From positions 55,332 through 119,331 of the forward strand of contig JAJXYF010000013.1 of assembly GCA_021780755.1 (NCBI GenBank): a DNA stretch of 64,000 nt. Reading direction: 5' to 3'. The position numbers and the translations under genes are program-made. The DNA is from Deltaproteobacteria bacterium. Lineage in GTDB: Bacteria > Desulfobacterota > Binatia > Binatales > Binataceae. Under the pieces are notes generated by a model. It did not search any database. It was not told the DNA's origin and saw nothing but the letters and a program-made list of their open reading frames with translations. Of this stretch, positions 1,752-55,405 are shown one piece after another. Position 1 is the stretch's first letter. Each line of letters starts with the position of its first letter.

Positions 1752-1878
1752 GGAGATTATGCTAATGTTGACTCCAAATCCCGAATTTCATAAGGTTGTG
1801 CTACGTGACAGGCCGGTTAATCATGGCAAAGCTGTTTATCGAAGGCGACGATGCTTCGACGGAGATGAGCCTGAAATT

Positions 1879-3438
1879 ATGGCCAAACGTGTAACGCTTG
1901 ATGCGATGATCCCGCGCGAGGATTTTGCAGTCGAAGCAGAAGATCGGACCGCCGAAATTCTGTTCGGAGATTTCCCGATCAGTTATCTATTGCCGGAATC
2001 TCCGATTTTCAAATTGTTGCGTAAACCAGACTTTCAGAGAGAAACGAACCACTGGAGTCCAGAACAGGTTGCAACCTTTGTCGCGAGTTTTCTGGACAAT
2101 GAAGTAATACCCTCATTGATCCTTTGGAAGTCTAGGAGCTTTATTTTCGTAATCGATGGCGGTCATCGATTAAGCGCGCTTCGAGCTTGGGCGCTGGACG
2201 ATTATGGTGCGGGCGCTCATTCGAGCGTGTTCTTTGGCACCAACATTTCGAAACAGCAGATAGCTGTCGCTAAAAAGACCCAGAGGGCATTGGAAGATAG
2301 TGTCGGTCGTTATACAGCCCTGAGCGACCTAGTTGGCAAAAAGGTAGGCGACGAACTAAAGCAGAGTCGAGCTACGCGGCTATTTACCAGAAGTATCCCG
2401 GTACAGTGGATTCAGGGCAGTGCGGCAGTAGCTGAAACCTCGTTCTTCAAGATCAATACCCAGGGAACCCCACTTGACGAAACTGAAGAAATGCTCATCA
2501 GAAACAGAGACAAACCTATCGCGATCGCTGCAAGAGCGATAGTTCGCGGTGGGACGGGCCATCAGTACTGGTCGTCGTTTCCAGAACCGCAGAAGACGAC
2601 AATCGCAGATCTGGCGACTAGAGCCAATGAAATCCTTTTTGAACCCGAAGCGGACGTGCCCATCAAAACAATCGACGTTCCATTGGGCGGCTCTGCGTCT
2701 CCAGTAGACGCCTTGGCCCTCTTGATTGAATTTCTCACGTTAGCGGGAACTCGCGACCAGGTGCCTAAAGGCATCGCCGAATACGCCGCTGATGATAAGA
2801 ACGGTGCAGTAACAATTGGGGTTATCGAGAAATCGCTAGAAATCGTGAATCGGATAACCGGCAACGGCCCAGCAAGTTTAGGGCTCCATCCTGCGGTCTA
2901 CTTTTACAACGAGAAAGGAAAATATAGTCGATTCCTTTTCCTCGGAATGATTCGTCTGATAACAGAGCGTGTTCGTAACAACGATGATGGTTTCTTCAAA
3001 AAATTCACGTATGCGCGCGCTAAAGTCGAACGATTCTTGATTGAAAACAAATCTCTAATCGGCGTCATCTTGCAGAATTTGGGTAAATACAAACGCGTGC
3101 CCAAGATGCACGATCTCTTTGCCTTTCTCATAAAGGAAGTAACGGATGGGAAGGAATTGAAGCCAGAAGATGCCATCAAGGAATTGGGGCTCAAAGGACG
3201 AATTTTTGATATTGTAGGCTCGTCGACAAAAAAGGAATTTTCCGATGATGCCAAATCAATAATCCGAGTAAGAGAGGAGTTAAAGAAAGCCCTTATATGC
3301 CCCATTTGCCAGGGCCTTCTCGATATAAGAAAATCCGTGCAGTTCGATCACGTTGTGCGAGTTCGAGAAGGCGGACTGAGCGATCCTGAGAACGGTGCTC
3401 TAGTGCATCCATATTGTAATAGCGGAATCAAAAACTGA
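1879..3438 (+). CDS. Cargo protein: DUF262/DGQHR(ParB-like) N-terminal domain plus C-terminal HNH endonuclease motif
   Basis: FVIDGGHRLSALRAW motif in N-terminal half; C-terminal CPICQG...FDHVVRVREGGLSDPENGALVHPYCNS HNH signature; in-frame ATG at 1879 (ORF track opens at 1750 inside the IR). Confidence 0.8.
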   Translation: MAKRVTLDAMIPREDFAVEAEDRTAEILFGDFPISYLLPESPIFKLLRKPDFQRETNHWSPEQVATFVASFLDNEVIPSLILWKSRSFIFVIDGGHRLSALRAWALDDYGAGAHSSVFFGTNISKQQIAVAKKTQRALEDSVGRYTALSDLVGKKVGDELKQSRATRLFTRSIPVQWIQGSAAVAETSFFKINTQGTPLDETEEMLIRNRDKPIAIAARAIVRGGTGHQYWSSFPEPQKTTIADLATRANEILFEPEADVPIKTIDVPLGGSASPVDALALLIEFLTLAGTRDQVPKGIAEYAADDKNGAVTIGVIEKSLEIVNRITGNGPASLGLHPAVYFYNEKGKYSRFLFLGMIRLITERVRNNDDGFFKKFTYARAKVERFLIENKSLIGVILQNLGKYKRVPKMHDLFAFLIKEVTDGKELKPEDAIKELGLKGRIFDIVGSSTKKEFSDDAKSIIRVREELKKALICPICQGLLDIRKSVQFDHVVRVREGGLSDPENGALVHPYCNSGIKN

Positions 3439-3444
3439 ATCCCG

Positions 3445-3714
3445 TTATGGCGGCAAGTTGAAACCGAATTCTATCGGATCGATGCGAAGCTGATCGCAGA
3501 TTGACTGAATCTCGGAAGGTGCCATGAGGGCCGAATCATTCAATTCGTCCATTATGGCATCCCAAGGTAACGAGGAATCGGGATTGTCGCGCTCGAAATA
3601 GATTTTCGGGCGAGATGATTTGACGTTGACTAATTTGCCGTACCGACATCCTAGCCACAGGACATGATCGCGGAATTCCCGAAACGTGGTTTCGCGAGCG
3701 ACAGGGACGGGCAC
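3445..3714 (-). CDS. Small protein, candidate HicA-like partner
   Basis: 89 aa, 11 bp downstream of the HicB-like ORF on the same strand; TFREFRDHVLWLGC...PKIYFERDNPDSS pattern; family assignment by eye only. Confidence 0.45.
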   Translation of the reverse strand: MPVPVARETTFREFRDHVLWLGCRYGKLVNVKSSRPKIYFERDNPDSSLPWDAIMDELNDSALMAPSEIQSICDQLRIDPIEFGFNLPP

Positions 3715-3725
3715 GGCACGCGTAT

Positions 3726-4046
3726 CTACGCTGCCTGCGCGTACTGACGGGGGTGCACAGTAAGATCGCGCCCTAGTCCTTCTTCATCAAGAAAATCGAG
3801 AGGCAGAGGTTTAGCGTGTTCGTATGCTTGCCAATACCATTCGGGTGCGCGCCGCTTCCCCTCGAATGGCGAACGTCCGCGTTTGGCGTCCAATGCCAAT
3901 TGGCCCTCTACCGTGGCTTTGAGAGCGCGCCATGCAGCCTTGATGTTTTGTTCCTGAGCGGCAATGTTTGTCTCAAGCCAAAGCGCAACCCACAGATTGC
4001 CCTCTTTCAGGAAAAGGACGCTTCGTTGTCCGGGCAGATCGTCCAT
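3726..4046 (-). CDS. HicB-like antitoxin-type protein
   Basis: 106 aa; LWVALWLETNIAAQEQNIKAAWRALKATVEGQLALDAKRGRSPF...APEWYWQAYEHA resembles HicB-like domain followed by the GR-PF..PAP..YW tail. Confidence 0.6.
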   Translation of the reverse strand: MDDLPGQRSVLFLKEGNLWVALWLETNIAAQEQNIKAAWRALKATVEGQLALDAKRGRSPFEGKRRAPEWYWQAYEHAKPLPLDFLDEEGLGRDLTVHPRQYAQAA

Positions 4047-4133
4047 TTTTTGCGCTCCTTTGGATTGGGCTCACTTCATATCGTGATGCCCGTCTACCAC
4101 CATTATAGGGGATGGCGCAAGAAATGATGCAAA

Positions 4134-4280
4134 CTATTTGGAAGTCGGTTTAGCCTTAGGCTTCTTCTGACCAGCGGACGTTAGCACGTTGATTACCTTT
4201 TTTAGCTTTTCTGGATCGACGTGCTTTAGTTCTTCGCGCAACTTCTCGTCTGCTTCCCGTGTCTTTTCGGTAATAGCCAC
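4134..4280 (-). CDS. Short ORF (48 aa, GTG start), MAITEKTREADEKLREELKHVDPEKLKKVINVLTSAGQKKPKAKPTSK
   Basis: Read from the minus strand between transposase A and the HicB-like gene; not in the ORF track because of its length; charged helical composition. Confidence 0.45.
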   Translation of the reverse strand: MAITEKTREADEKLREELKHVDPEKLKKVINVLTSAGQKKPKAKPTSK

Positions 4281-4312
4281 GCTTCCATTTTAGCGCGGCG
4301 AGGTTCGGCCGC

Positions 4313-5266
4313 CTAGCGATCGACAGATTGAAGCATTTTCTCGAACATCTCAGGGTCTTTCCTGTGGTTGAAGCGGAACGAGAATTCGTTCAGATAGAGC
4401 GGCAGATACGCATCCGAGACGTGGTGATATGAGCCGAGAATCCCGCGCTTGAGCAAGCTCCAGAACGATTCAATCGTGTTCGTGCCGACAGTGCCGACAA
4501 CGTACTGATGCTGCTTGTGGTTAACGGTCTTGTGCTCATAACCGTACTTCTTCAAATTCCGATAGCCCGGATGCTCATCGGTCGCGACCAGGCGGGCGCG
4601 CGTCGATACTGCCTGCTTCACGAAGTCTTCCTGAGTCCGGAAACCGAGTCCGTCAACGGCTTTGCAGATCACGTTCCCCTTGCGGGCGATCGCGCCGATG
4701 ACGGTCGCCTTCTGTGCGTGCGCGCCAGCCTTTCCAAGCCGCTTATCCCAATGTTTGTTTTCTTCGATTCCGCCAATGTAGGTTTCATCGATTTCAACTT
4801 CGCCGCCGTCGCTTCCCAAGGGCGGAATGACATCGCCCTGCATCGCGGCTCGCAAGCGCATCGCGACGTACCACGTCGTCCGATAGGCGTGCGTGGAATC
4901 TTCCCCGAAGATGACGCGATGAAGCTGTAGAGCGCTGATTCCTTTCTTCGCGGTCAGAATCAGATAGCCGATCTTAAACCACAGCTTGAGCGGGATTTTC
5001 GTATTCTCAAATATCGTGTGCGTGATGACTGAGAATCGATAGCCGCCGTTCTTCGCGCACGTCAGGACTTCGCCAGTCTGGTCGTCCATCGTCTGCGCGC
5101 CGCTCTTGCAGACCCAGTGATACGGCTTCGAGGGCATCGCCCAGACCTTGACGCTACCGCAGCGAGGGCATTTTACGACGCCATCCGGCCACCGCTGAGC
5201 CATTATCGCCTTCTTGCAGGCGTCTTCGTCGGGAAGCAGGGCATCGAATTCAGCTAACGTCTTCAT
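4313..5266 (-). CDS. IS1595-family (ISXO2-like) DDE transposase, element A
   Basis: N-terminal zinc ribbon (CPRCGS...), GEVEIDETYIGG, ATDEHPGYRNL, NTIESFWSLLKRGILGSYHHVS..LPLYLNEFSFRFNHR. Confidence 0.95.
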   Translation of the reverse strand: MKTLAEFDALLPDEDACKKAIMAQRWPDGVVKCPRCGSVKVWAMPSKPYHWVCKSGAQTMDDQTGEVLTCAKNGGYRFSVITHTIFENTKIPLKLWFKIGYLILTAKKGISALQLHRVIFGEDSTHAYRTTWYVAMRLRAAMQGDVIPPLGSDGGEVEIDETYIGGIEENKHWDKRLGKAGAHAQKATVIGAIARKGNVICKAVDGLGFRTQEDFVKQAVSTRARLVATDEHPGYRNLKKYGYEHKTVNHKQHQYVVGTVGTNTIESFWSLLKRGILGSYHHVSDAYLPLYLNEFSFRFNHRKDPEMFEKMLQSVDR

Positions 5267-5318
5267 GCCTTAAATAATAGCGAATTCGGGATTTGGAGTC
5301 AACATTAGCATAACTCCC

Positions 5319-5326
5319 GAAACCTT
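5319..5326. repeat. Right 8-bp TSD of element A
   Basis: GAAACCTT, identical to 1744-1751. Confidence 0.93.
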
Positions 5327-5340
5327 TACACGAAGGAGAG

Positions 5341-5370
5341 GCGAAGATGTTTCACGTGAAACATCTTCGC
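5341..5370. promoter_or_regulatory. parS-type centromere site (16-bp core 5348-5363) in a 30-bp perfect palindrome
   Basis: GCGAAGATGTTTCACGTGAAACATCTTCGC is self-complementary over 30 nt; core TGTTTCACGTGAAACA equals the canonical ParB-binding consensus TGTTNCACGTGAAACA. Confidence 0.85.
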
Positions 5371-5374
5371 GGTC

Positions 5375-5390
5375 TGTTTGCCGTGAAACA
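5375..5390. promoter_or_regulatory. Second parS-like site (14/16)
   Basis: TGTTTGCCGTGAAACA, two mismatches to TGTTTCACGTGAAACA; overlaps the left TSD of element B. Confidence 0.5.
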
Positions 5391-5393
5391 GTT
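5386..5393. repeat. TSD AAACAGTT, left of element B
   Basis: AAACAGTT at 5386-5393, 7581-7588 and 9688-9695. Confidence 0.92.
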
Positions 5394-5432
5394 GGCGATT
5401 GTAACGGACTTGACACCATTGCTCGGAAGTCC

Positions 5433-6353
5433 CTATTCTGGCTGCGACAGGCCGGTATTTATGGGGTCGTTATTCTGCTTGTGGTAGTTGTACTCTTTGG
5501 GACCGAGAAAAAAGGCTATGCCGTACCTCAACTGATAACGTCTGGGCAGATAGAACATCGCAAACCCGGTCTCATAGGAGTTCTCGAATATATCCGTATA
5601 ACGAATGATTCCGTACACAGCCAAGGTCACCAGCGATTCTTGGATGCGCGCGGCGTCGCGCTCCGGCAGAAAGAGGACGATTTTCCCGTCTCTATACCGA
5701 ATAAAGCAGTCCGCTGCGTCACCTGCGCCTATAACGGTCTGCTTGATTGGCATAGGGCTGCATTCTCGAAAGTCTGGCGGCAGCGGCAACTCGTCTACCA
5801 GCCGGAGGTCCCCTATAAATTCGGTTATTATCGCGGGACCCTTCCCGCAATTTCTAATTTTCAATTCCACGAGCGTCGCGTCCAAATAGTAATCCGCCCG
5901 GTCGTTGATGTTTCGTCCCACGAATGCCTCGGCGATCAGCAACGGCCTGTCGGCTTGCAGGGCCAATTTAGCGGCTTTCGCGCTGTCGTTCGCCGCCTGC
6001 GCCGCTTTACGGGTAGCCCATGCAGCGAGTCCGCTGGCACCGAATTGAAGGAAGGCCGCGAGGACAAGGAGCCTAGTCAGTCCGGCAATTTTCTCTTCTA
6101 TCCTTGTCTGCTCATCGGGCTTGGGGCTGAGGTTGTCGCGTATTGGGGTTTGTGTCTTTGGAGTGCTGGTAGACGTCGGATGGCTGGCATTCTGCTCAGT
6201 TACTCGCTGGGTAGTCTCTGGGTGGCTCTGAACGCCGCCGCCTTCAGTTCCTGGTGGGCTTGGATTTGGCCTTGGGCTTGGTTGTGGGGTTGGGCTTCCG
6301 GCGCTTAGGAGTAAGGCCGATGCGACAAGGATCGATGAGGCCAAACGCCTCAT
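5433..6353 (-). CDS. Cargo protein B: membrane-anchored protein of unknown function
   Basis: 306 aa; hydrophobic N-terminus, Pro/Ser/Thr-rich linker, TM (LTRLLVLAAFLQFGASGLAAWA), then ADRPLLIAEAFVG..LKIRNCGKGPAIITEF domain; TAATG overlap with the upstream small ORF. Confidence 0.75.
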   Translation of the reverse strand: MRRLASSILVASALLLSAGSPTPQPSPRPNPSPPGTEGGGVQSHPETTQRVTEQNASHPTSTSTPKTQTPIRDNLSPKPDEQTRIEEKIAGLTRLLVLAAFLQFGASGLAAWATRKAAQAANDSAKAAKLALQADRPLLIAEAFVGRNINDRADYYLDATLVELKIRNCGKGPAIITEFIGDLRLVDELPLPPDFRECSPMPIKQTVIGAGDAADCFIRYRDGKIVLFLPERDAARIQESLVTLAVYGIIRYTDIFENSYETGFAMFYLPRRYQLRYGIAFFLGPKEYNYHKQNNDPINTGLSQPE

Positions 6354-6499
6354 TAGGGCTTTCTCGTCTTTCCCCGTTTAGTGCGACGGGTCTTTCGTTG
6401 CGCTGGATTCACTGGCGGAGTCTTGAGCATGCGTTTCAGTGCATCCTCAAAGGTTAGCGGATGAAGCACGATAGGCTTGTCATCTTCTTTTTTTGGCAT
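6353..6499 (-). CDS. Small cargo ORF B (48 aa), MPKKEDDKPIVLHPLTFEDALKRMLKTPPVNPAQRKTRRTKRGKTRKP
   Basis: ATG at 6499-6497, stop TAA overlaps next ATG (TAATG) at 6355-6351; basic C-terminus; missed by the 60-aa cutoff. Confidence 0.65.
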   Translation of the reverse strand: MPKKEDDKPIVLHPLTFEDALKRMLKTPPVNPAQRKTRRTKRGKTRKP

Positions 6500-6596
6500 G
6501 TTTCCACCAATGGCGTGGTCGTGCAAAGCCGAACTCCAATTGCTTTGGTCTGGTCTGGCGATGCAGAAGCGCCCGCCAGCTCGGGCGCTTCAGCAT
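6480..6596 (-). CDS. Micro-ORF B (38 aa) overlapping the transposase stop: MLKRPSWRALLHRQTRPKQLEFGFARPRHWWKHAKKRR
   Basis: Same position and sequence pattern as the micro-ORF in element C (MLKRPNWRMLLHHSSKPTQLDLFPRARRYC). Confidence 0.45.
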   Translation of the reverse strand: MLKRPSWRALLHRQTRPKQLEFGFARPRHWWKHAKKRR

Positions 6597-6597
6597 C
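6560..6597. other. Conserved hairpin at the 3' end of transposase B
   Basis: GATGC-A-GAAGCGCCCG-CCAGCT-CGGGCGCTTC-A-GCATC; counterpart at 8568-8605 with structure-preserving substitutions. Confidence 0.6.
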
Positions 6598-7528
6598 CTG
6601 CTATTGCTGCCTTGAAAATGTCAGGGTTCTTACGGTTATTGAAGCGCCACGCGAACTCATTCAGGTAGAGCGGCAGATATTTCTTGGAGACGTTGTGGTA
6701 CGTCCCAATGACGCCGCGCTTCAAGAGCGACCAGAAGTTTTCGATGTTGTTCGTGTGGACGGTGCCACGAACATATTCGCCCGCTTTGTGGTCAACTGTT
6801 TGATGCGGATAGAAGTGCTTCAAGTCGCGATAGCCACCGCTCTCATCGGTCGCGATCAGGCTGACCTTATCCGCGACGGCCTTTTCGACAAACGTGCTAA
6901 GGGTATCGGCGCTCGTATCCTCGATCATCTGGCAGACGACGTTCCCTTTGCGCGCGATCGCGCCGATGACCGTCAGCTTGCCAGTGTTGGCCGCGCCGCC
7001 GCCGTGATATTTGGCGCGCACCTTCGCGTGGCGATTCTTCTGCTTGCCACCGAGAAATGTCTCGTCAACTTCAACTTCGCCCGTCAATTGGGCTTCGTCG
7101 TTGCCGAGCATCGCACGGACGCGGTGGCAGATATAGAAAGCGGTCTTGTACGCGGTTGGCCTGCCGTCTTCTTTGAGCATTCGTTGGACTTGAAGGGCGC
7201 TCATTCCCTTCTTGCTCTGGCAAATCAGGTAGATGACCTCGAACCAGATCGGCAGCGGATAGTTAGTGTTCTCGAACACCGTGCCGACGAGAGCGGAAAA
7301 GCGATAGCCGTTCTTCTTGTGGCATACCGAGACAAGGCCGGTATCCTCGTTCACGCTTTCCTTGCCGCTCTTGCAGACCCAAGTCCAATTGCGCTTCGTG
7401 ATCTTGAATACCTTGTCATTGCCGCATCGCGGACAGCGCACGCCGTCAGGCCAGCGCATCTCAACGAGCAACCCCATGCAGGCTTCTTGAGTGTTGTACT
7501 GTTCGTGAATCTGTCGAAGGCTGATCAT
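6590..7528 (-). CDS. IS1595-family transposase, element B
   Basis: CPRCGNDK zinc ribbon, GEVEVDETFLGGKQKNRH, ATDESGGYRDLKHF, NNIENFWSLLKRGVIGTYHNVS. Confidence 0.95.
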   Translation of the reverse strand: MISLRQIHEQYNTQEACMGLLVEMRWPDGVRCPRCGNDKVFKITKRNWTWVCKSGKESVNEDTGLVSVCHKKNGYRFSALVGTVFENTNYPLPIWFEVIYLICQSKKGMSALQVQRMLKEDGRPTAYKTAFYICHRVRAMLGNDEAQLTGEVEVDETFLGGKQKNRHAKVRAKYHGGGAANTGKLTVIGAIARKGNVVCQMIEDTSADTLSTFVEKAVADKVSLIATDESGGYRDLKHFYPHQTVDHKAGEYVRGTVHTNNIENFWSLLKRGVIGTYHNVSKKYLPLYLNEFAWRFNNRKNPDIFKAAIAGC

Positions 7529-7580
7529 GAACTGACTTTACACCCATTTCGCGCGTGGTGTCAAGTCCGTTACAATCGCC

Positions 7581-7588
7581 AAACAGTT
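7581..7588. repeat. Shared TSD AAACAGTT between elements B and C
   Basis: Third identical copy of AAACAGTT, exactly between the two IS ends. Confidence 0.92.
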
Positions 7589-7621
7589 GGCGATTATGCC
7601 AGACTTGACTAACAACCGTTC

Positions 7622-8575
7622 GTGCGCTATATCTTTTATATGGACACGAAAGTCGAGGCTGGCGAACCGAAAATCACCCGACAGATGACGCTGGCGGAGT
7701 TTGATCGGATGTTTCCCGATGAAACGTCCTGCAAGTCGTACCTGATGGCACAACGCTGGCCGAAAGGCGTGCGCTGCCCGCGCTGCGGCAATGAGAAGGT
7801 TTACGCCAACAAGACGCGGCCGTTTACTTGGCAGTGCATGAAGTGCGGAGCGGCGAAGCGGACGCCTTATCGGTTCTCGGTGACGGTCGGGACGATCTTT
7901 GAGAATACGAACTATCCGCTTCTGGTCTGGTTCAAGGTTCTCTACTTGATGCTGACGAGCAAGAAAGGCATCAGCGCGCTCCAAATCCATCGGATGATCG
8001 GAAGCGGCTCGTATCGCACCGCTTGGTTCATGTGCCATCGCTTGCGCGCCGGAATGGCCGAACCTGAGTTTCGTCAACTCATGGGAATCGTTGAAGTCGA
8101 TGAAACCTATATCGGCGGCAAGCAGAAGAATCGGCACGCGGACGTGCGCGCCAAGTATCACGGTGGTGGTGCGGCCAATACGGGCAAAGCTACAGTCATC
8201 GGCGCGATCTCGCGCAAGGGCAATGTCGTTTGCAAGATAATCGAGAACGCCACCGCTGAGACGCTTAGCCACTTTGTCGAAGATACTGTTTCGGATCGCG
8301 TCAGCTTGATAGCCACCGACGAGAGCGGCGGCTATCGCGACTTGAAGCACTTCTATCAGCACAAGTCGGTTGATCATAAGGCGCGCGAGTACGTGCGCGG
8401 CGAGGTTCACACGAACAACATCGAAAACTTCTGGTCGCTCTTGAAGCGCGGCGTCATCGGCACCTACCACAACGTAAGCAAGAAATATCTGCCGCTCTAC
8501 CTGAATGAGTTCGCGTTCCGCCACAACAATCGCAAGAACTCGGACATCTTCGGGAGCGCCGTAGCAGGATGCTGA
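7622..8575 (+). CDS. IS1595-family transposase, element C
   Basis: CPRCGNEKVY..CMKCGAAKRTPYRFS zinc ribbon, GIVEVDETYIGGKQKNRH, ATDESGGYRDLKHF, NNIENFWSLLKRGVIGTYHNVS; start may be the downstream ATG (MTLAEFDRMFPDE). Confidence 0.95.
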   Translation: MRYIFYMDTKVEAGEPKITRQMTLAEFDRMFPDETSCKSYLMAQRWPKGVRCPRCGNEKVYANKTRPFTWQCMKCGAAKRTPYRFSVTVGTIFENTNYPLLVWFKVLYLMLTSKKGISALQIHRMIGSGSYRTAWFMCHRLRAGMAEPEFRQLMGIVEVDETYIGGKQKNRHADVRAKYHGGGAANTGKATVIGAISRKGNVVCKIIENATAETLSHFVEDTVSDRVSLIATDESGGYRDLKHFYQHKSVDHKAREYVRGEVHTNNIENFWSLLKRGVIGTYHNVSKKYLPLYLNEFAFRHNNRKNSDIFGSAVAGC

Positions 8576-8605
8576 AGCGTCCGAACTGGCGGATGCTTCT
8601 GCATC
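8568..8605. other. Conserved hairpin at the 3' end of transposase C
   Basis: GATGC-T-GAAGCGTCCG-AACTGG-CGGATGCTTC-T-GCATC, same 38-nt length as 6560-6597. Confidence 0.6.
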
Positions 8606-8661
8606 ATTCCAGCAAGCCCACGCAGTTGGATTTGTTTCCGCGCGCACGGCGTTATTGCTGA
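8569..8661 (+). CDS. Micro-ORF C (30 aa) overlapping the transposase stop: MLKRPNWRMLLHHSSKPTQLDLFPRARRYC
   Basis: ATG overlaps the transposase TGA (ATGCTGA); pattern shared with element B. Confidence 0.45.
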   Translation: MLKRPNWRMLLHHSSKPTQLDLFPRARRYC

Positions 8662-8816
8662 GCCTCTTGCGCGGCTTTGGCTTCTTTTGCCTTGCGCCGG
8701 AGCGCCGCGCGACGCTTCATGGCACGATAGTGCGGGTGCGTTTTCAAGTGGTATTCGGCGCACGGTCGGCAATAGAAATGTATGATTCTCTTCTTCTGCT
8801 CGCCGATTTTAGACAT
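8652..8816 (-). CDS. Small cargo protein C: MSKIGEQKKRIIHFYCRPCAEYHLKTHPHYRAMKRRAALRRKAKEAKAAQEAQQ
   Basis: 54 aa from internal ATG; Cys/His-rich then basic; overlaps 8 bp with the upstream cargo gene. Confidence 0.6.
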   Translation of the reverse strand: MSKIGEQKKRIIHFYCRPCAEYHLKTHPHYRAMKRRAALRRKAKEAKAAQEAQQ

Positions 8817-9609
8817 TTTCTTTTTTCTCAGTGGGTACGTCACACGACCCGCCAGCCTTTAACACCAAGCAGAATAGCTGGGGGCCGTTGCGTAAGTCGG
8901 GGTCAGCAAATACTGAACCATATAAGATCACATCCGGCGCTTCGCCGCCCATTTCTGATCCCCACATGGACGTATATACAGCAGGGGTATCCTTGGGTCC
9001 GCGCTCGTTTGTCGAATATATGTGCCATTGGGCCGCTATCCACGGCTGCACTCTAAAATCCCAATCTAACTTCCCTAAGAGAATGCGACACGTCTGCGCC
9101 TTGACGATCCTTGTTTTGGGAGAATCCGTATGCGCCCAGCGACCAAAAAGAGCACTTCGTTCGCCAGAAACCAATCCATCGATATCGAACGTGATCCAAA
9201 ACTCAGCAGCGTCACCATCGTTTGTCACTTCGACACAGGGTTCGTTTCCATAAACGATCCGTAATCTAGCTATTGGGCCACTAGGAATCTTCGCGTCGGT
9301 CGCTGCACGCAAGCTCTGCGTCCGCATTTCCCGCGTAAGTTCTTCGAGTGCTTGAGTATGCCGTCGTCGGTCAATCAATTCCGGCGAATCGATCTCAAGC
9401 TGCTTAACCTTCTGGTGCTCATCGCGCCACGCCAGATACATGGCATAAAACACAAGTACAACCGTCGCCAACTCATAGATGCGCGGCGGAACTGTTATAC
9501 CCGTCAAATCCGAGATAAGCGCCAACGCGCCTATGAGCGCACCGCCTAGCAATTCTTTTTTCCAATTTCTAAGGACGGCGCGCAGCCACACTCTAACCAT
9601 GAGACGCAC
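8809..9609 (-). CDS. Cargo protein C: membrane-anchored protein of unknown function
   Basis: 266 aa; N-terminal TM segments, coiled segment, then a probable beta-rich domain (LRIVYGNEPCVEVTNDGDAAEFWITFDI). Confidence 0.75.
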   Translation of the reverse strand: MRLMVRVWLRAVLRNWKKELLGGALIGALALISDLTGITVPPRIYELATVVLVFYAMYLAWRDEHQKVKQLEIDSPELIDRRRHTQALEELTREMRTQSLRAATDAKIPSGPIARLRIVYGNEPCVEVTNDGDAAEFWITFDIDGLVSGERSALFGRWAHTDSPKTRIVKAQTCRILLGKLDWDFRVQPWIAAQWHIYSTNERGPKDTPAVYTSMWGSEMGGEAPDVILYGSVFADPDLRNGPQLFCLVLKAGGSCDVPTEKKENV

Positions 9610-9687
9610 CCCCGCGTCGCGACATTCAGCCGTTCACAAAGGGTGTAACATTTGGCCACCGTGTTAGTCAAATACGGCATAATCGCC

Positions 9688-9695
9688 AAACAGTT
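9688..9695. repeat. TSD AAACAGTT, right of element C
   Basis: Identical to 5386-5393 and 7581-7588. Confidence 0.92.
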
Positions 9696-54346: not shown

Positions 54347-55405
54347 TCATGACCCGCGCTGTTTCGGATGGGCTAACGCGTCGGGGTTCGCCACCCGGAT
54401 TGGCGCGCCGTCCGCGAAGGCGACCACCGCCTCCAGCGTATCGGTATAGAAGGCGACCAGGGTCTCGCGCGTGACGTAGCCGAGATGGGGCGTGAGCGTG
54501 ACGTTATCCATCGAGCGGAAAGGATGATCGGCCGGCAGCGGTTCGAGATCGAAGACGTCGATACCTGCGCCCGCGATGCGGCCGGCGCGCAGCGCCGCTA
54601 TCAGATCGGCCTCGACCACGATCGGTCCACGCGACGTATTGATGAGATAGGCGGTCGGCTTCATCAGGGCGAGTTCGCGCGCCGTGACCAGACCGCGCGT
54701 ACGATCGCTAAGCTGCACATGGACTGACAGCACGTCGGCCTGGCGGAACAGATAGTCTTTTTCGACGCGCCGCGCGCCGACGGCCGTGGCAGTTTCATCG
54801 GTGAGATTCTGGCTCCACGCGATCACCGGCATCCCGAAGGCGTGCGCGTAGGCGGCCATCCGCTTGCCGATGCGACCGAGGCCCAACAGGCCGAGCGTGC
54901 GTCCGGCCAGGATGGTGCCCACCGTGCTCTGCCATTCCCCGGCGCGCATCCGCCGGCCCTCGAGCGCCATGTGGCGAACCGTCGCGATCATCAGGCCCCA
55001 GGTCAGTTCCGGAGTCGCATTGAAGACGTTGGCGTAGATCGGGTTGGCGAAATTGGAATGCGCGACGATCACACCATGGGCAGTGGCCGCCGCCATGTCC
55101 AGGTTGGGCAGCGACATCCCGATGATGGTGACCAGTTTCAACTGGGGCAATCGCTCGAAGAGGCTGCGCGGCAGACTCATGCGCTCGCGCACGGTGCAGA
55201 GGACGTCGAACGGTTGGAGCAGCGCTGCCGCCTCGTCGTGCGACAAATGCCGATCGAAGACCGTGATCTCCGCCCTACCCTTAAGCACGGACCAGTCGGC
55301 CGACCGCAGAGCGATGTTGGCATAATCGTCGAGGATGGCAATTTTGAGCATTGGAGGAGTCCTTGGGGTCAGGTTGTCAATAGCCGCAGACCTTTCAAGC
55401 GGCAA
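54347..55405 (-). CDS. D-2-hydroxyacid dehydrogenase family protein
   Basis: GRTLGLLGLGRIGKRMAAYAHAFGMPVIAW, LMKPTAYLINTSRGPIVVEADLIAAL. Confidence 0.95.
   Translation of the reverse strand: MPLERSAAIDNLTPRTPPMLKIAILDDYANIALRSADWSVLKGRAEITVFDRHLSHDEAAALLQPFDVLCTVRERMSLPRSLFERLPQLKLVTIIGMSLPNLDMAAATAHGVIVAHSNFANPIYANVFNATPELTWGLMIATVRHMALEGRRMRAGEWQSTVGTILAGRTLGLLGLGRIGKRMAAYAHAFGMPVIAWSQNLTDETATAVGARRVEKDYLFRQADVLSVHVQLSDRTRGLVTARELALMKPTAYLINTSRGPIVVEADLIAALRAGRIAGAGIDVFDLEPLPADHPFRSMDNVTLTPHLGYVTRETLVAFYTDTLEAVVAFADGAPIRVANPDALAHPKQRGS

Follow-up and report, generated by a model that had tools for sequence, protein, structure and literature searches.

Defence genes of bacteria are usually traced to islands, prophages or large transposons. 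The locus described here lies in a 64,000-nucleotide stretch of a Binataceae genome (hereafter the window; positions 55,332 to 119,331 of contig JAJXYF010000013.1, assembly GCA_021780755.1). It raises the question of whether a restriction-type nuclease can travel in something far smaller, an insertion sequence with a single transposase gene, and what such a nuclease would do there. A preliminary description of the same DNA had proposed a minimal single-transposase defence transposon with an addiction module. We consider it probable that the locus is an IS1595 passenger IS carrying a single-protein restriction nuclease of the GmrSD/BrxU-like kind, with a small gene pair that probably serves addiction or dormancy. 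The earlier proposal stood as far as the presence of a restriction-type nuclease in an intact IS1595 element is concerned; the HicAB identity that it gave to the small pair gained no significant match.

The element, here called element A, occupies positions 1752-5318 of the window and is a complete IS1595-family element of 3.57 kb. Perfect 31-bp inverted repeats lie at 1757-1787 and 5283-5313, and the ends reach outward to 1752 (GGAGATTATG...) and 5318 (GGGAGTTATG...) through an outer 5 bp with three mismatches, giving terminal repeats at 1752-1787 (forward strand) and 5283-5318 (reverse strand). On both sides the element is flanked by the 8-bp target site duplication GAAACCTT (1744-1751 and 5319-5326). 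When the flanks were joined without the element (...GTAGGAAACCTTTACACGAAGGAGAGGCGAAGATGTTTCACGTGAAACATCTTCGC...), 62-78 of 89 positions agreed with further copies of a repeat that is dispersed in the genome. Because the joined flanks recreate a copy of a repeat that is present at about ten other places, the insertion is real, and the inverted repeats and duplications reported earlier were borne out by the sequence. The remainder of the interrupted repeat follows at 5327-5391 (forward strand), with a parS-type 16-mer inside it. The inverted-repeat sequence of element A occurs at just these two sites in the whole 3.9-Mb genome, and the element is therefore present in a single copy. The G+C content of the locus is 48%, against 61% for the window. 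Between the ends, a gene for a 519-aa protein on the forward strand (1879-3438) faces four reverse-strand genes, encoding proteins of 89 aa (3445-3714), 106 aa (3726-4046) and 48 aa (4134-4280) and a transposase of 317 aa (4313-5266); the three small ORFs of the preliminary description are all present. Each of these component kinds is known. Their combination, and the landing in a parS-bearing dispersed repeat, are unusual.

The transposase is intact and matched the IS1595 zinc ribbon (1.4e-8) and the ISXO2-like DDE domain (1.8e-38) in Pfam as well as an NCBIfam model (4.4e-50). IS1595 elements with passenger genes ('tIS') have been described (Siguier, Gagnevin and Chandler 2009, as cited in PMC7986276), and element A shares with them a transposase with a zinc ribbon and an ISXO2-like DDE domain, inverted repeats about 30 bp long, an 8-bp duplication and genes placed between the ends. 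Related genomes routinely show this layout. A set of related transposases (about 50-58% identity) was collected within the family and class of this bacterium, and ends were delimited for most of the elements with sufficient flanks. These elements measure 1.8-3.3 kb, about half have exact 8-bp duplications, and nearly all hold at least one extra ORF; DUF4145, DUF3800 and RusA-like proteins (the last below cut-off) are among the products, as are membrane-like proteins without assignment. In this bacterial family, IS1595 elements commonly carry cargo. Element A differs in adding a restriction-type nuclease and a two-gene toxin-antitoxin-like unit, and it is larger than the other complete IS1595 elements delimited in the family. 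Across loci L137-L154, most IS1595 elements of the family contain about 1 kb of varied cargo, and a small basic ORF often stands beside the transposase gene. The 48-aa ORF of element A, itself basic and directly downstream of the transposase gene, resembles by eye a 51-aa ORF (L140 6680-6835) that holds the equivalent place after another transposase gene. On the strength of this likeness and position we assign it to the IS backbone and reject it as part of a defence module. Two further IS1595 elements with inverted repeats of their own, B (5392-7582) and C (7587-9689), directly adjoin element A, and each encodes a passenger protein without assignment, of 306 aa in B and 266 aa in C.

The 519-aa protein had been described as a nuclease with a DUF262-like DGGHR motif and a C-terminal CPIC...FDHV...N..L.H..CN signature. 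Both motifs are present, and Pfam agrees with the domain assignment: GmrSD_N (DUF262) was matched at 1.2e-11 (45.5 bits, cut-off 33.2) and HNH (PF01844) at 6.1e-6, also over its cut-off. The DGGHR motif comprises residues 93-97, and the HNH/zinc residues are C474, C477, H491, N505, H510, C513 and N514. In an alignment of 51 homologues with 34-61% identity, D93, G94, H96, R97 and all seven HNH/zinc residues are invariant; the motifs are intact. A PHROG entry without function, phrog_29172, matched the protein over its full length (residues 3-519 against 6-531 of 531, 5.6e-159), and by this match the protein is a member of that family. Viral GmrSD_N proteins also matched it (E 2e-5), and PADLOC returned a partial match to NsnA. 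The AlphaFold model is confident (pLDDT 84.8), and in the PDB its best structural match is BrxU, a type IV restriction enzyme (Foldseek, 496 columns, probability 0.85, E 0.013). The modest E-value and a low overall TM-score of 0.20 indicate that the domains are placed differently relative to each other than in BrxU. ParB CTPases were the next structural matches, and the C-terminus of the model matched a Gme HNH nickase with probability 0.98.

In predicted architecture the 519-aa protein resembles GmrSD, BrxU and SspE, in which DUF262 with a DGQQR motif is combined with a DUF1524 nuclease (PMC10952713). Like GmrSD and BrxU, it is a single chain with an N-terminal DUF262 domain and a C-terminal His-Me finger nuclease (PMC10952713), and with SspE it shares DUF262 followed by a C-terminal nuclease domain. 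Unlike GmrSD and BrxU, it has DGGHR in place of DGQQR and a PF01844 HNH of the CxxC...HxxC type in place of DUF1524, and its HNH likewise separates it from SspE. Pfam found no DUF1524 nuclease in the protein, and DUF1524 membership was ruled out. The motif (I/V)DGQQR is likewise missing from the protein, DGxHR with invariant D, G, H and R in the 51 homologues standing there. Phosphorothioation genes were absent from element A and from the annotated homologue neighbourhoods inspected. Because both the motif and the nuclease domain differ, we do not file the protein as a member of GmrSD, BrxU or SspE, and our literature search found no experimentally characterized homologue of this DUF262-HNH subfamily.

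Is element A an isolated case? The preliminary description had named the lack of homologues inside IS1595 ends as an outcome that would speak against it. That outcome did not arise: among the 80 genomic loci retrieved, at least two other complete IS1595 elements hold homologues. In a Beijerinckiaceae genome (L065), the homologue, a 62-aa ORF and an IS1595 transposase gene lie inside 24-bp ends with flanks of CTTAAAA(G). In a Chitinophagaceae genome (L117), the homologue and three more ORFs lie inside 24-bp IS1595 ends with an exact duplication; the three ORFs stand behind the nuclease gene (L117 9741-11169), and one has a weak DUF6941 match. A Methylovirgula locus (L059) is very likely a third IS1595-borne homologue besides these two, with a fragment of an IS1595 transposase downstream of the homologue and a left-end sequence as in L065, on a contig that stops before the right end of the element. 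The transposase of element A is 34% identical to that of L065 and 28% identical to that of L117, and those of L065 and L059 are 85% identical to each other. On the homologue tree, the four IS-borne genes require four label changes. These changes imply that IS1595 elements captured the DUF262-HNH gene on separate occasions.

Relatives outside IS1595 elements bear on what the nuclease may do. When public genomes were scanned with an alignment of relatives, 283 loci were confirmed and 80 of them kept. These 80 belong to Pseudomonadota, Bacteroidota, Cyanobacteriota, Actinomycetota, Armatimonadota, Acidobacteriota and others, and most lie outside IS1595 elements. The phrog_29172 family is widespread and transferred. 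Several homologues have defence genes as neighbours: in phage KL3 the gene stands beside an EcoRII methylase-Vsr-EcoRII set, on a Burkholderia glumae plasmid it adjoins CBASS genes, and a distant homologue on an Acinetobacter plasmid lies near BREX. A full-length DUF262-HNH homologue is also encoded by filamentous phage Pf8 (L018 8523-10061), where it is annotated as repressor C protein. An uncontrolled census of the genes closest to homologues in genomes and viral contigs (127 neighbours) counted EcoRII-C four times, a C5-methylase three times and a phage integrase seven times. EcoRII-type methylases place 5-methylcytosine on CCWGG, and we infer that the repeated adjacency to such methylases speaks against simple cleavage of that mark. 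Taken with the Pfam models, the BrxU match, the invariant residues and the recurrence of the gene within further complete IS1595 elements, the defence-type neighbours agree with the identification of a DUF262-HNH nuclease, for which a role in defence is likely.

Two other readings of the nuclease have to be set against this one. Homing-type HNH proteins favour their own spread, and HNH nucleases are common selfish genes. The protein might likewise serve the mobile element and not the host, attacking competing mobile DNA or cutting element-free sites for spread or retention. Homologues do occur on phages, plasmids and IS elements, and the HNH part is weakly like the HNH domains of intron maturases and Cas9. 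Yet in most genomes the gene sits outside IS elements, beside several unrelated defence systems, and the DUF262 half is typical for restriction enzymes, not for homing nucleases; we regard service to the element as improbable. The gene might instead be a functionless hitch-hiker between IS ends, intact just through recent insertion. Its single copy in the genome would fit this, as would the exact duplications and perfect repeats, which suggest recency, and the state of a homologue in the same genus (G006; L136 5665-7289), which a stop splits into two ORFs and around which no IS ends were found. Against it, every active-site residue is kept, and the family recurs, by separate capture, in further complete IS1595 elements, at least two in number, whose transposases are clearly different. 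We give the hitch-hiker reading little credence and retain the restriction nuclease as the preferred one.

The small pair is harder to place. Neither the 89-aa nor the 106-aa ORF matched Pfam, NCBIfam or PADLOC, the 89-aa ORF had no HicA_toxin match in family-model searches, and neither had a PDB profile match. Viral contigs yielded no match to either ORF, and plasmids none to the 106-aa ORF. For the partial RNase H fold of HicB in the putative antitoxin, a profile comparison with 19 ORFs chosen at HicB-like sites gave the expected register and no significance, and the AlphaFold model of the 89-aa ORF is poor (pLDDT 54). These searches gave no direct match to HicA or HicB for the window's own proteins. 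Relatives were nevertheless found in two genomes. In G039, of the same bacterial family, a relative of the 106-aa ORF (33% identity, E 3.9e-7) is followed by a relative of the 89-aa ORF (L025 1818-2117; 29% identity). There the HicB-like/HicA-like pair, with a 364-aa ORF, is cargo of an IS1-family element (L223 942-4167), as it lies between perfect inverted repeats of 18 bp that are bordered by an 8-bp duplication. A two-row profile reached a further pair in G069, which follows a fragment of an IS1-type transposase; the second member of this pair matched HicA_toxin at 1.2e-4, below the curated cut-off. With HicAB the window pair shares two short co-oriented ORFs, HicB-like then HicA-like, and it differs in that its own two proteins have no significant match. 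Weak and indirect support for the HicAB label comes from the gene order kept in these two genomes and from the match of the G069 partner.

These data leave room for a different reading, that the two ORFs are transposase regulators or other IS accessory proteins. In 3/3 cases (window, G039, G069) both genes follow the transposase gene on its strand, the HicB-like one first and the HicA-like one second, and a position behind the transposase is also that of the small accessory ORFs of related elements; the lack of a significant HicA/HicB match for the window pair points the same way. The G069 match to HicA_toxin, together with the retained antitoxin-then-toxin order and typical sizes, argues for a toxin-antitoxin. 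We hold an accessory role to be a serious contender, though somewhat short of an even chance. A toxin-antitoxin-like unit is plausible, with the 106-aa protein as putative antitoxin and the 89-aa protein, in the HicA position, as putative toxin.

Where element A landed is a separate matter. The repeat that hosts it contains a perfect parS-type 16-mer, TGTTTCACGTGAAACA, at 5348-5363. This 16-mer occurs at 19 sites in the genome, or 22 when up to two mismatches are allowed, and at about ten of the sites the longer repeat is matched with an identity of at least 86%. A probable origin-type cluster of the 16-mer on contig 16 has a context that differs from the dispersed repeat, and in the other six genomes of the genus only short stretches of the repeat were matched, mostly its palindromic core. 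Element B sits in this dispersed repeat at almost the same point as element A, and so do the related IS1595 copies of contigs 5 and 30; the parS-bearing repeat appears to be favoured for landing. The hypothesis that parS itself attracts IS copies had to be narrowed, the 16-mer being part of a longer repeat and the contig 16 cluster lying in another context. A broader proposal, which we find rather unlikely, would make the lineage's IS1595 elements a class of minimal cargo transposons with a single transposase, gathering stand-alone defence nucleases and addiction pairs. With the parS-bearing repeat as landing pad, they would shuttle defence genes to fixed, apparently harmless sites, perhaps by recognizing ParB-bound DNA or the repeat itself.

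The mechanism that we infer for element A, comprising nucleotide gating, DNA cleavage, an anti-phage role and toxin-antitoxin activity, would run as follows. The transposase (4313-5266) would act on both inverted-repeat ends and insert the element with an 8-bp duplication. The N-terminal DUF262 module, of the ParB/sulfiredoxin fold, probably binds and hydrolyses nucleotide and would thereby gate the C-terminal HNH nuclease, which would then cut or nick invading DNA. The co-oriented HicB-like and HicA-like genes behind the transposase gene would probably favour retention of the element, through addiction or dormancy. With 283 relatives confirmed in one pattern scan, the nuclease belongs to a large conserved family whose motifs are unlike those of GmrSD, BrxU and SspE. 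Members of this one DUF262-HNH family were found in the simplest of mobile elements, several times independently, and the IS1595 passenger element may thus offer a small, testable vehicle for the movement of defence genes.
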